From NCBI RefSeq assembly GCF_024713945.1, contig NC_134684.1:2647001-2711000 (forward strand): a stretch of 64,000 nt of DNA, read 5' to 3'. Origin of the DNA: Dermatophagoides farinae. Its lineage: Eukaryota > Arthropoda > Arachnida > Sarcoptiformes > Pyroglyphidae. Below the pieces are notes generated by a model, which was not told where the DNA came from, did no database searches, and was given only the letters and a program-made list of their open reading frames with translations. Shown here piece after piece: positions 36,423-42,399 of this stretch; the first letter of the stretch is position 1, and each line of letters begins with the position of its first letter. The position numbers and the translations under genes are program-made.

Positions 36423-36827
36423 ATTATATTTTTTTAATTTTCTGTATTACTTGTATTTCATTTCTTACTTTTATTTTTTTTCGGTTTATTAATACAATAA
36501 ATTAAATATAACTTTATCAATTTTAAAATGTCAGTTTTGCCTTTGTCCAGTTGTTGTGAATTGAATTATTATATTTATTGAATTATTGTTTATGTATTTA
36601 AGCACAATTCTTGTTGAGTCATAGCTCAGATTTCTTTTATTTTATTCTTATTAAAAAATTTGGTTATTTCGTGTTAATCCTTTGTTTTTAACACCAGTAT
36701 AGCTTTGTCATAAATCGCAATAACAGAAAATTCATTAATAAAAATAACACATTTAATGAACTGGGCGTATTAGTTTAAATTTATTCAATGAATCTGATGG
36801 AATATTCATAAGCAGAGAATTGGTAAT
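36423..36827. other. AT-rich transposon-derived spacer
   Basis: No coding match is seen. Several short AATAAA-type motifs occur. Its place between transposase and gag scraps suggests decayed mobile-element DNA, but no terminal repeats were identified. Confidence 0.4.
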
Positions 36828-37119: not shown

Positions 37120-37133
37120 CGTTATCAGCACCA
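37120..37133 (+). other. Putative primer-binding site of a copia-like relic
   Basis: CGTTATCAGCACCA follows TCTCCAACA, which looks like an LTR 3' end. The same 14 nt lie beside the 5' LTR of the BEL/Pao element on the other strand (42136-42149). The plus-strand copia RNase H scrap starts about 100 bp downstream in the same orientation, so this may be the 5' end of an internally deleted copia-like element. See findings for the tRNA-Ile match. Confidence 0.45.
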
Positions 37134-37838: not shown

Positions 37839-38037
37839 TTATGATGATTTATCATTTTGTTCAAAGCCTCTTGCTCGATATCGACCATCTTCATTTATTG
37901 TATAAACCCATTTTACCCATATCACACATGTATCAGATGGTGGTTCAATCAAAGCCCATGTTTTGTTTTTCAGAAATAATCTTTGTTTTTGTAAGTCATC
38001 ATGAAACAGGGTAGTATTTTGTGTAATTGTTTTCCCC
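37839..38037 (-). pseudogene. Ty1/copia-like reverse-transcriptase relic
   Basis: The minus frame contains LFLKNKTWALIEPPSDTC, then KWVYTINEDGRYRARGFEQ. These fit the start of copia reverse transcriptase (L..N.TW.LV..P, KWV+..K.DG+.+AR...KG..Q). It stops soon after. The BEL/Pao insertion at 38038 sits just upstream of this frame, so the larger element entered an already decayed copia copy. Confidence 0.65.
38034..38037. repeat. Target-site duplication, left copy (CCCC)
   Basis: CCCC lies immediately outside the left LTR and is matched by CCCC outside the right LTR at 42396-42399. A 4-bp duplication fits BEL/Pao integration (usually 4-6 bp). Confidence 0.7.
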
Positions 38038-38280
38038 TGTAGCAAAACATGCTCAAAAGAAAAACAAACGATCGCTGATCAACAAAATGAAAACTTTATT
38101 TCATATAATTTATTAATACGATGTCTTTACCGATATAAATCATAAACATAATAATAAAGAAAAATCAATACAGCATAAAAATAAACGACGAAGAAGAAAC
38201 TCTATTCATCTTCATCACGGTCAATACTCAATTTCTTGTTAGTTAATTATCGCCACCTATCGACCGATATTTTTTCAACA
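38038..38280 (-). repeat. 3' LTR of the BEL/Pao element
   Basis: 243 bp. On the element strand it begins TGTTGAAAAAATATCGG and ends GCTACA. An AATAAA poly(A) signal lies at 38095-38100 (minus). It differs from the other LTR by one C/T change and one extra G in an A-rich run. It supplies the stop codon of the upstream ORF. Confidence 0.95.
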
Positions 38281-41200
38281 TTCCTCCCCGTTTTTTGGCG
38301 ATTTCCAAGATAGCCAATTATCAAAATTCACAGACACGGGCTTGGTTCTCCATTGACGACATCTGTCATTCATTGACTTAATTCGAAACATTATTTTTGT
38401 CATTAACATTGGAATTCGATTGCTCATCTCCTCATTGATACTTCGCTTCCACGGATCTGGGGGCACATCAATTTGTTGAAGCCATTCGTTATAACATTTT
38501 CTTTTCAGGTCGATATCGGTTACTTTCGATTTGATGGTATACAGACGTACAGCCACAGGACACTGAAATTGGTTGATATTGCGTTCAGAACGTTTTACAT
38601 TGTTCGTCACATTGGAATACAATATAAGATGTTTAGGTCGAATCATTCCTTCAATCGATTTGGCTCTAATAGCTCCATATGATAATGCGATTAATTCACC
38701 AATAACAATTTTTCGTTGGATTAAGTTTGATTTTCCATAAATTAGTGATATTATTTCGTCATCCGATACGTTTACGGCAATTCCAATCGTAACAAACGGG
38801 CTAGACGATATTCTAAATGGCCGACGGATAAAACGATAGCACATCGAATTGTCTTCTAGATTCAACCACAAAAACTGTACGTAATCCCGATGTTCCTTGT
38901 CGATTTCGATATTATGAAAAACAGATTGTATATCATTGATTATACCGATTGGTTTCATGCAAAACTTCAATAATGGTCGAACGATATCCCACAATATGAT
39001 TTCTTTAAAAATCGCTTTATTCCATGGTTGTTTTTCATCATCTCGACTAATCACAAAATGCGGTATACGATAGCTGATGTTCGGTGCTATTTTCGTCGGT
39101 TCGATTACTTCTTTTGTTTCCATATCATTCATCATTGAGCGATACTGTTTTCGCCGGTCAACGTTCATTTGCATCAACATATGATTCATCACTTCTTTAA
39201 TTTCATTGACATTTGGATCGATTTTTTCGTTGATAATCAACGGTACTTTGATTGAATATTGTTTGCTCGAATCGTCGTATTTAACATCTTCAGTTTTACA
39301 ATAGTTTGTCATAACTTTATTCATAATCAGTTTGGATTCTTTATCGACATTGTGTTCTGGACCAATTTCGTTACCGATGTTCTTGCATGATGACAATACT
39401 CCGTTCAAATTTCTTGACAATCCAAACACTGTCCAACCTAATGTTGTTCGTTTGGCCACGAGATCGATCGATAATCGTTTTTCATCTTCCAACTGTATCT
39501 TGTTGATGTTGTCCAGACCAATCAAAATATCTACCATCTTTGGTTCATCATAAAACGGAATATTTTGTTGTCGTATCAATAATTGTTGTTCATGATTTAC
39601 ACAATCGAATCGTAATGTATTTATTTTATCGTTGATGCGGAATTTCAAATGTTCGTTGCTTCCATCACAGATTGGGATCGATAATGAAACTACTTTACTT
39701 CCGGTAATAGTAGGCGTTGATTGACTTAGCGTTTCCATACAAATCGGTTCAACTTCATCGGTTCGCAATTTCCATAATTCGGCTAATCGTCGTGAAATGA
39801 ATGATGATCCTGATCCATCGTCGAACAACACTCTTACGTTACGTCCGTTAATCGTAGCCATCGTTGTCTTGTATAGACTCGTGCTGTTTTGTGTCAACAA
39901 ATTGTTTGTTACGGATTGTTTCGATGATTGATTCACATTTGACGCCGATGATTCAGCAATTTGTTTCGGTACTGTTTGATCATTACTAGCATTATTCGTT
40001 GATTCAATTTCGTTTGTCGTGGTTGGTGGAAATGATTTGGGTTTCAAATCGTTGCACAAATACGTTATATGATTCTTGTTACAGATGTCACATTTGAATC
40101 GTCGATCACAATCTTTACTGTTGTGTCGGAAACCACCACACCTGAAACACATTCGTTTATCGATAGCAATTTGTCGTCGTTCTTGTATCGTCAATGGACA
40201 ATTCTCTGTTTTATGATTACCGTCGGCGAACATGCACGTGTTTGTCGATGTAGTCATCATTACATTATTCGTCGTTCGATTTGCAACCATGCTTGGTCGA
40301 TTAGTCGATTTTACATTCAGATCACTGGACGCGATCTGCGATATAGCCGTTCGTTCTCGATCGAGGCCTGTTTTAAAGTACTGTAAGATTTGCTCCAGTG
40401 TGATAGCACGTTTATCGCCGATATGCATGAAATGTGCTCGATCGATTTTCTGTAGTAGCACGCCCACTAACGATCTCTCTTCTGAAGCGAGATTTGCGCT
40501 TGATAATGTATTTCTTATCAGTATGGTAACTTCCACTAATGCCTCCCAGTCTCGTTCTAATGGTCGCAATGATAAGAACGGCGCCTTCCGAAGTCGGTCC
40601 ACTAGCGCGGGAATTATCCGATTGGGACTGGCATAATGTTCGTCGAGTTCAGCCATTATTGAAACCATTGTGCATGTATTTGGATTAAAGCACTCGATGA
40701 TGTAGCGATCTTTGTGCGGCAGCAAATCAATGATTTCCATGATTTTATTAGCATTTCCTCTGATTTGTGGATTGTCGACGACGTAATGTTGAATCGTTTT
40801 CCGAAAAGTATGATATGCTAAAGGATCACCGTTAAATTTTTCAAGCTTCTTCGCGGCCACTTTGGCTCCGCCCGACCAGTTCGTCTGATATTGATTATAA
40901 TCCCACCAATAAGCTTGATCGTTGTAATAATAATATTGACCGTTATGATAATATGGAACGTTTGGATGTTGATAACTGTTATACGATGATGACGATGGTT
41001 GAGGATTATTTACGTACGGTGCATTCGGCTGCTGTTGTTTTTGATTATCGTTCGATGTTGATTGTTGCTGTTGTTCACTTTCGCTATTCGATGTCGATTG
41101 CTTTTGATGATGATAAATCGTATACAACGGTTGATTGTTTTCGTTACTTGACGTCGATGGTTGTGGCATTAATATTGGTGTTGCATCAGGTGGCGTGACA

Positions 41201-41724
41201 TCGATAGTATCGTATGATTGATTGTTTTGGGTAGCGCCCTCTCGTGATGGATTCGTTTCGATTGTTTTCGTTCGATTTTTCGTTACATTCAACTCGTGGA
41301 ATCGATTGACGACTTTGATTACATGATCCGCGATACATGGATATTGTTCAGCGATTCGGCTGATTTCGTTACATTTATCTTCGGTTAATTGTCGTTCAAA
41401 TTTCGTTAAATCATTCCTTTCGGAATTTCGTTCGATAACATCCATACTTTGTGCGTATTTAAACGCTAAATCCACCATCGATTTCATTTCATCAAACGGT
41501 TTCTCTTCTTCGGATGTGAACTTTCCATCCTCGATAATCAACTTACTATATTTGTAGTATTCATCGTATAATAATTTTCCCGTTTTGATTGCAGCCTTTA
41601 CTCCTTGGTGAAATATCGATATATTGTTTATACGTATCCGTTTAACCAGATCCTTTACTTCGTTCCTCAGCATTTCCGGATTTATATCGTCACCGTATTC
41701 GGTACCCGCCCTCGTAAGAACCAT
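38275..41724 (-). CDS. BEL/Pao Gag-protease with deleted reverse transcriptase (1149 aa)
   Basis: One uninterrupted frame. Order: an alpha-helical N-terminus; a Gln/Ser/Asn/Tyr-rich spacer (about 160-285); a DUF1759-like Gag region (about 287-460, from AKKLEKFNGDPLAY); zinc-binding Cys/His motifs (C497-C509, and CCHC at C526-C539 followed by CDICNKNH); a DUF1758-type retropepsin with FDDGSGSSFI (634-643); then pieces of reverse transcriptase. The first catalytic-Asp region is present (NDIQSVFHNIEI, about 930-941), as are HRDYVQFLWL and RRPF-x5-SSPF. The frame then jumps to a motif that in full elements lies well past YxDD (IYGKSNLIQRKIVIGELIAL). YxDD, most of RNase H and the integrase core are absent. 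The C-terminus reads PKNGEEC, and TGT TGA falls in the 3' LTR. A nonautonomous Gag/protease carrier is inferred. Confidence 0.85.
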   Translation of the reverse strand: MVLTRAGTEYGDDINPEMLRNEVKDLVKRIRINNISIFHQGVKAAIKTGKLLYDEYYKYSKLIIEDGKFTSEEEKPFDEMKSMVDLAFKYAQSMDVIERNSERNDLTKFERQLTEDKCNEISRIAEQYPCIADHVIKVVNRFHELNVTKNRTKTIETNPSREGATQNNQSYDTIDVTPPDATPILMPQPSTSSNENNQPLYTIYHHQKQSTSNSESEQQQQSTSNDNQKQQQPNAPYVNNPQPSSSSYNSYQHPNVPYYHNGQYYYYNDQAYWWDYNQYQTNWSGGAKVAAKKLEKFNGDPLAYHTFRKTIQHYVVDNPQIRGNANKIMEIIDLLPHKDRYIIECFNPNTCTMVSIMAELDEHYASPNRIIPALVDRLRKAPFLSLRPLERDWEALVEVTILIRNTLSSANLASEERSLVGVLLQKIDRAHFMHIGDKRAITLEQILQYFKTGLDRERTAISQIASSDLNVKSTNRPSMVANRTTNNVMMTTSTNTCMFADGNHKTENCPLTIQERRQIAIDKRMCFRCGGFRHNSKDCDRRFKCDICNKNHITYLCNDLKPKSFPPTTTNEIESTNNASNDQTVPKQIAESSASNVNQSSKQSVTNNLLTQNSTSLYKTTMATINGRNVRVLFDDGSGSSFISRRLAELWKLRTDEVEPICMETLSQSTPTITGSKVVSLSIPICDGSNEHLKFRINDKINTLRFDCVNHEQQLLIRQQNIPFYDEPKMVDILIGLDNINKIQLEDEKRLSIDLVAKRTTLGWTVFGLSRNLNGVLSSCKNIGNEIGPEHNVDKESKLIMNKVMTNYCKTEDVKYDDSSKQYSIKVPLIINEKIDPNVNEIKEVMNHMLMQMNVDRRKQYRSMMNDMETKEVIEPTKIAPNISYRIPHFVISRDDEKQPWNKAIFKEIILWDIVRPLLKFCMKPIGIINDIQSVFHNIEIDKEHRDYVQFLWLNLEDNSMCYRFIRRPFRISSSPFVTIGIAVNVSDDEIISLIYGKSNLIQRKIVIGELIALSYGAIRAKSIEGMIRPKHLILYSNVTNNVKRSERNINQFQCPVAVRLYTIKSKVTDIDLKRKCYNEWLQQIDVPPDPWKRSINEEMSNRIPMLMTKIMFRIKSMNDRCRQWRTKPVSVNFDNWLSWKSPKNGEEC
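38281..38296 (-). other. Polypurine tract of the BEL/Pao element
   Basis: On the element strand AAAAAACGGGGAGGAA directly abuts the 3' LTR. It is purine except for one C, as expected for the plus-strand primer. The tract also encodes the last residues of the ORF. Confidence 0.75.
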
Positions 41725-42135
41725 CTTCGTTCTCGTTTCGTCGTTGCGGTTTTCGATTATTCGAACGTTTAATTTCGTAGCTCGTTGATTATCGTTATTC
41801 GTTCTCGTGCTGAATCGTTCGTCGTTGTTTACGTTCGTCGTGGTCGTCGTTCATTCGTCGTCGTCGTCGTTATCGTTCGTCGTCGTTAATTTCGTTCGCT
41901 ATCGTTAATTTCGTTTGATCGTTATCGTTATCGTTCGCCGTCATTCGTCGTTGATCGTTCGTCGTCATAGATCGTCGTCGTTACCGTCGTTTGTTATTCT
42001 CGTCGTTCGTTACTTTCGTTCGTTCGTTCGTTCGTACGTTTGTCGTTCGTTTGTCGTTCGTTCGTTCGTTCGTTCGTCGTTCGTTCGTTCGTTCGTTCGT
42101 CGAAAACCAATATGTTGCTTAGCGAGGCAATCATA
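41725..42135 (-). repeat. AACG/ACG-repeat leader of the BEL/Pao element
   Basis: Between the putative primer-binding site and the ORF start, the element strand is built from ACG, AACG and ACGACG units with very few T. It is far richer in CpG than host DNA around it. Open frames on the opposite strand give Arg/Ser runs only. It probably forms the RNA leader; packaging or translation functions are possible but not shown. Confidence 0.7.
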
Positions 42136-42149
42136 TGGTGCTGATAACG
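42136..42149 (-). other. Putative primer-binding site (tRNA-Ile anticodon arm)
   Basis: Four bases (TTTA) after the 5' LTR end, the element strand reads CGTTATCAGCACCA. Its complement TGGTGCTGATAACG matches the anticodon arm of eukaryotic tRNA-Ile(AAU), recalled as TGGTGCTAATAACG. The only difference is at wobble position 34, which is inosine in the mature tRNA. No TGG-initial site for a tRNA 3' end is seen next to the LTR. Internal half-tRNA priming is known for Drosophila copia. Confidence 0.5.
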
Positions 42150-42153
42150 TAAA

Positions 42154-42395
42154 TGTAGCAAAACATGCTCAAAAGAAAAACAAACGATCGCTGATCAACA
42201 AAATGAAAACTTTATTTCATATAATTTATTAATACGATGTCTTTACCGATATAAATCATAAACATAATAATAAAAAAAATCAATACAGCATAAAAATAAA
42301 CGACGAAGAAGAAACTCTATTCATCTTCATCACGGTCAATACTCAATTTCTTGTTAGTTAATTATCGCTACCTATCGACCGATATTTTTTCAACA
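42154..42395 (-). repeat. 5' LTR of the BEL/Pao element
   Basis: 242 bp, TG...CA ended, over 99% identical to 38038-38280. It would drive transcription toward lower coordinates. Confidence 0.95.
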
Positions 42396-42399
42396 CCCC
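42396..42399. repeat. Target-site duplication, right copy (CCCC)
   Basis: Matches CCCC at 38034-38037. Confidence 0.7.

Follow-up and report, generated by a model that had tools for sequence, protein, structure and literature searches.

The window, by which we mean the whole stretch of 64,000 nt of the Dermatophagoides farinae genome that was analysed, carries an LTR retrotransposon of 4358 nt (38038–42395) on its minus strand. The 5' LTR (TGTTGAAA...CTACA, 42154–42395, minus strand) and the 3' LTR (38038–38280, minus strand) agree at 241 of the 242 bases that align, apart from one gap column, and the insertion is bordered on both sides by the 4-bp repeat GGGG of the element strand, i.e. by target site duplications that read CCCC on the plus strand (42396–42399 and 38034–38037). 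Before the 3' LTR lies a polypurine tract of 9 nt, GGGGAGGAA (38281–38289, minus strand), which is identical in a second family of elements (family B; the window element belongs to family A). The 5' LTR ends in GCTACA and is followed by the gap TTTA (42150–42153, minus strand) and then by the predicted primer-binding site (PBS), CGTTATCAGCACCA (42136–42149, minus strand), complementary to positions 27–40 of tRNA-Ile when the tRNA is taken as spliced and the inosine at position 34 is read as G. The original prediction had the coordinates, the strand and the 4-nt distance to the LTR all right. The leader and the first codons of the reading frame are made up of tandem repeats of the type CGAACGAA (41814–42102, minus strand), and these repeats align in several registers between the family A copies.

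The element has a single open frame of 1191 codons (38275–41850, minus strand), in which Pfam recognises an aspartic protease. When the frame was searched in pieces, aspartic protease families were the only ones above the Pfam cut-offs; no RT or integrase was found in the element at E ≤ 0.1, and the RT core and integrase thus went undetected. Gag-side, protease, RT-start and Pao-peptidase-side stretches were recognised through similarity to a third family, C. Five of the six pieces (191–200 aa) match the polyprotein of the family C copy on contig C7, with best E-values per piece from 1e-19 to 5e-56; the protease piece gives the strongest match (50% over 161 aa), and the first piece has no match to family C. 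The family B protein matches those of A and C in like manner. Judged from positions, the strong matches of A break off within the initial part of the RT of C and restart within the Pao peptidase stretch. Since they skip the RT-core stretch, the window element is, on its sequence, a non-autonomous BEL derivative, as family B apparently is too.

The assignment to BEL/Pao made in the original prediction is borne out through protein similarity to a family that has a Pao peptidase and an RT, with the qualification that the window element itself is non-autonomous. The LTRs (242–243 nt) and the element length fit the ranges given for Belpaoviridae, which are described with LTRs of 0.2–1.2 kb, a genome of 4.2–10 kb and a polypurine tract of about 10 nt (PMC8742986), the 9-nt tract before the 3' LTR agreeing with the last. 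What is shared with this group is thus LTR size, polypurine tract and protease, and in family C also RT, Pao peptidase and DUF5641; the polyprotein of the window element is of BEL type by way of its similarity to family C. An RT, RNase H and integrase of its own are not found in the window element, whereas family C has an RT. A Ty1/copia affiliation is not indicated, as none of the 45 RVT_2 matches in the genome falls in the window element and its protein is BEL-like.

In the 62.4 Mb of the genome (22 contigs), the 14-mer is found exactly at 12 sites, against none for the reversed 14-mer that served as control, and at 30 further sites with one mismatch, against 15 for the control. Within the window there are two exact copies and one with two mismatches, i.e. 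three against 0.21 expected. Of the 12 exact sites, 11 can be assigned to LTR elements and one is an unplaced remnant; ten lie in the three BEL-type families, nine of them with detected LTR pairs. In all four family A copies (the window, C2, C10 and C4) two LTRs were found at a distance of about 4.1 kb, and outside the window these pairs are identical at 243/243, 243/243 and 244/244 positions. The near identity of the LTR pairs shows that transposition was recent. The 14-mer is unchanged in all four copies; the invariance that had been proposed as a check is thus observed, and a different conserved site beside the LTR, which would have spoken against the prediction, is absent from them.

In family B, the copies on contigs C6, C2 and C9 give LTR-pair matches of 246–252 nt at 100%, and a fourth copy, on C3, is 81% similar to family B over 1185 nt, its LTR pair not being detected. 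In family C, the LTR-pair match of the copy on contig C6 covers 84 nt at 92%, with some shorter pieces besides, and that of the copy on C7 covers 433 nt at 100%, the latter ending 20 nt short of the PBS. The C6 copy has RVT_1, Peptidase_A17 and DUF5641 above the Pfam cut-off, and an integrase zinc finger is seen in family C only below it; the Peptidase_A17 domains of this family, at C6:411427 and C7:1596580, belong to 19 such matches in the genome. Across families A–C the gap between LTR and PBS is TTT, TTTT or TTTA (3–4 nt). When 150-nt flanks were compared between the families (E ≤ 1e-3), no match was found downstream, and upstream matches extended over at most 22 nt.

Of the two remaining exact sites, D is linked to a copia element and E is the unplaced remnant. 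Site D (contig C5) has a PBS and leader that are 81% similar over about 71 nt to a sequence that precedes a copia RT by 2.2 kb. Site E is the second exact copy in the window (37120–37133, plus strand); it directly follows ...CCAACA and has, as read by eye, a copia RNase-H-like remnant downstream. At neither site is a gap before the PBS apparent, and an LTR pair was sought for both and not found, so the LTRs of both are unproven. Near site E, window positions 36552–36683 are 95% identical over 133 nt to what resembles an LTR in a BEL copy on contig C1 (L114).

Of the 30 one-mismatch sites, 18 were inspected by eye, and none stands directly after an LTR-like end. When their 400-nt flanks were compared with eight reference family sites (E ≤ 1e-4), a comparison that is blind to LTR partners beyond about 1.5 kb, 16 gave no match and the remaining two gave matches of 16–22 nt to family A upstream and nothing more. 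A shorter form of the site, the 11-mer TATCAGCACCA, occurs at 56 genomic sites against 30 for its control. It adds little, because apart from the 12 exact sites only one of its matches, C3:896801, is tied to a copia element as judged from positions relative to RVT_2. There (L112), a shortened site, TTATCAGCACCA, follows a T run, with RVT_2 2.2 kb downstream at 899060, and matches positions 27–38 of tRNA-Ile only. This may reflect a primer that ends near the splice junction, or decay.

The host tRNAs were searched with a covariance model, which gave at least 62 matches (63 of 2453 candidates were scored, and the inventory is a lower bound); ARAGORN, run with introns allowed, recognised 59 distinct tRNAs at these loci. 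Two tRNA-Ile(AAT) genes were found, at C4:5985650 and C4:6014182, and a search for a split-gene pattern returned exactly these two loci, with 0 for its control. Both genes contain an intron of 61–63 nt between positions 37 and 38, within the stretch matched by the PBS. An intronless human-type tRNA-Ile gene used as genome query had given no match; the intron was then shown by the covariance search and ARAGORN. Introns of 10–109 nt are reported by ARAGORN for many host tRNA genes on C1–C10 (L045, L050, L053–L070), called Met, Glu, Phe, Gly, Asp, Thr, Cys, Ser and Ile among others, some of which labels may be off.

A further observation concerns the small contigs C11, C12, C14, C16–C19 and C21 (157–645 kb), on which nearly intronless tRNAs unlike those of C1–C10 were found (L009–L011, L014–L027, L029–L038 and others). 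Long uninterrupted eukaryotic reading frames lie near these tRNAs (Cpn60/TCP1, MYST acetyltransferase, WD40), and comparison of such frames with solved structures named no relative. The G+C content of these contigs is similar to that of the large ones. Perhaps they represent a second, small eukaryote in the assembly; that it is microsporidian-like is a guess.

The mature tRNA-Ile reads TGGTGCT-A34-ATAACG at positions 27–40. At the place of A34 in the gene, the complement of the PBS carries G, which is what inosine would predict, and all 13 other positions equal the spliced nuclear tRNA-Ile(AAT). The correspondence stated in the original prediction, identity to positions 27–40 except for G at 34, thus holds for the tRNA of the host after splicing, and the anticodon-arm sequence, whose lack would have told against the prediction, is present in the spliced molecule. 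The contiguous gene form TGGTGCTAATAACG, which has T opposite position 34 and would be the unedited fit, occurs at 0 genomic sites (its reversed control at 1), and the form with T at that place is also absent from the 30 one-mismatch sites; C opposite position 34 in the 12 sites follows from the construction of the search, and the T form was searched separately. These results agree with the earlier proposal that C stands opposite inosine. The edited contiguous sequence TGGTGCTGATAACG is found in the assembly at the 12 PBS-like sites only. When 40-nt stretches at the 12 sites were compared with the 59 tRNAs, a match of 14 nt was reached only with tRNA-Ile that was spliced and had I34 set to G, and 400 random 40-mers from the window reached at most 13 nt against the spliced classes. 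With the unspliced genes, 15 nt is reached by random stretches because the introns are AT-rich, and the sites reach 7–12 nt. The calculated duplex energy is −23.0 kcal/mol for G34:C, with G standing in for inosine, and −16.6 kcal/mol for A34:C. Since the gene has an intron in the matched stretch and G replaces A34, the PBS fits tRNA-Ile only as a spliced and A34-deaminated molecule.

We therefore propose, with a probability of roughly 0.8, that the site serves as PBS for an LTR retrotransposon derived from BEL/Pao, in which minus-strand DNA synthesis begins from the 5' half of cytoplasmic tRNA-Ile(IAU). The site adjoins the LTR, fits the anticodon arm and ends at nucleotide 40, where half-tRNA primers end at 39–40. 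The tRNA would be spliced, deaminated at A34 and cut after nucleotide 40, a position that we infer from where complementarity ends. Such a cut would cost the anticodon stem three of its five pairs and leave nucleotides 27–31 free to pair. The 3' OH of nucleotide 40 would then face the LTR and prime the copying of the 3–4-nt TTT(A) gap, followed by U5. During plus-strand synthesis the attached tRNA stretch would be copied back into the PBS; inosine would be read as G, and therefore C would be kept opposite position 34. Since the window element is without a detectable RT core and integrase, both would probably be supplied in trans by an autonomous BEL element that carries an identical PBS, for example one of family C.

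At the other end, none of the 12 sites extends the complementarity beyond nucleotide 27: the base that follows is T, A or G, and a C, as pairing with G26 would require, is found in 0/12, which for about five independent families could be chance alone. G26 is often dimethylated in eukaryotic tRNAs, and in retroviruses m1A58 stops plus-strand copying and sets the length of the PBS. In the same way, a modified G26 could stop plus-strand copying here and set the PBS length.

Among other explanations, the one that survives best, improbable as it is, holds that intact tRNA-Ile is anchored through an opened anticodon arm and stays uncut, priming taking place by another route (self-priming or a nick). 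Cleavage of the tRNA is indeed inferred, and self-priming is known in the Tf1/Sushi group and predicted for the plant TAR and Tcn1 elements (PMC6317226). Nevertheless, the site lies near the LTR edge, where the 3' end of the primer must be, and nucleotide 40, at which the complementarity stops, is also the one whose 3' OH is given as the cDNA start in hemiviruses (PMC1181622). Moreover, an exact genome search found no second exact 14-nt complement within these elements, which makes self-priming at 14/14 identity unlikely.

Somewhat less likely is a conventional PBS that pairs with the 3' end of a different tRNA, the 14-mer then being a conserved leader motif of another kind. Three of the four family B sites have, just downstream of the 14-mer, a 12-nt complement to a tRNA-Leu(CAG) gene end, which exceeds the maximum of 10 nt reached in this class by 400 random 40-mers. 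However, this match does not include TGG, the complement of CCA, and the tRNA-Leu gene lies on a small contig that is perhaps from another organism. The longest match to a tRNA 3' end with CCA is 7 nt in A, C, D and E, within the random range, and it is 7 nt also in the diverged B copy on C3. The 14-mer is common to families whose flanks otherwise match so little. An 18-nt PBS that fits tRNA-Arg or tRNA-Gly in the 3'-end region, as described for Belpaoviridae (PMC8742986), is not seen, and in this the elements differ from that group.

Mitochondrial and bacterial tRNA-Ile carry the anticodon GAU, so that a genuine G34 tRNA, e.g. of mitochondrial or symbiont origin, might serve as primer in place of the edited nuclear one; this is very unlikely, as the 13 other positions all equal the spliced nuclear tRNA-Ile(AAT) and the G34 sequence is confined in the assembly to the PBS-like sites. 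Chance similarity, or a repeat common to the families, can practically be dismissed, for despite the twofold number of one-mismatch sites over control the exact sites have no counterpart in the control and nearly all are tied to LTR elements, which holds for none of the 18 one-mismatch sites inspected.

Several points count against half-tRNA-Ile priming as proposed, among them the tRNA-Leu match of three family B sites, the unproven LTRs of D and E and the lower-bound nature of the tRNA inventory. A further one is the copia relative with RVT_2 at C3:896801, of which the site matches only positions 27–38. Another is that further BEL families of this genome seem, by eye, to use other sites: in three 1.2-kb stretches of such elements, TGG-starting candidate sites were seen in two, with LTR ends unverified, and nothing clear in the third.

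The use of an edited half tRNA-Ile has a precedent in plants. Elements of the Ty1/copia lineage Bianca have a PBS complementary to half tRNA-Ile of which the first anticodon base is edited from A to I, and among plant elements half tRNAs are described as exclusive to Ty1/copia lineages (Neumann 2019, PMC6317226). The PBS for an inosine-edited half tRNA-Ile is thus the same, whereas Bianca is a plant copia lineage and the present elements are of BEL/Pao type in an animal genome. In fungi, Copia-18_PHord and Helenus TRIMs use the anticodon loop of mature tRNA-Ile and of other intron-containing tRNAs (Kojima 2024, PMC10886601). They resemble the mite elements in that a PBS is common to non-autonomous and autonomous elements, and differ in being fungal and of the copia superfamily; animal Helenus elements use tRNA 3' ends as primer and resemble Gypsy (PMC10886601). 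The word inosine is absent from the main text of that paper. The hemiviruses Drosophila copia and yeast Ty5 also employ a half-tRNA primer, but take it from initiator tRNA-Met and belong to the copia superfamily (PMC1181622, PMC5371799). No report of half-tRNA priming in BEL/Pao, a group described as metazoan (PMC8742986), was found in the open-access literature searched. An animal host agrees also with a gene on contig C3 that has Ig I-set and fibronectin III domains. As far as these sources go, what would be new is the use of an edited half tRNA-Ile by BEL/Pao elements in an animal, its use by plant copia elements of the Bianca lineage being already known (PMC6317226).

In the literature examined, half-tRNA priming has so far been described for elements of the copia superfamily and non-autonomous elements linked to them. 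It is reasonably probable, though less so than the priming of the window element itself, that it arose outside Ty1/copia as well, and that several BEL/Pao lineages in one animal share the spliced, inosine-edited 5' half of tRNA-Ile with copia-like elements. If this is true for BEL/Pao, the choice of a cut tRNA would not be tied to one RT lineage. A primer common to BEL/Pao and copia-like elements would point to a pool of tRNA-Ile halves made by the host, and its sharing by two superfamilies makes host production of such a half testable. The site would furthermore be a record in DNA of two RNA processing steps, splicing and the editing of A34 to inosine, and tRNA maturation may therefore be readable from assembled genomes.
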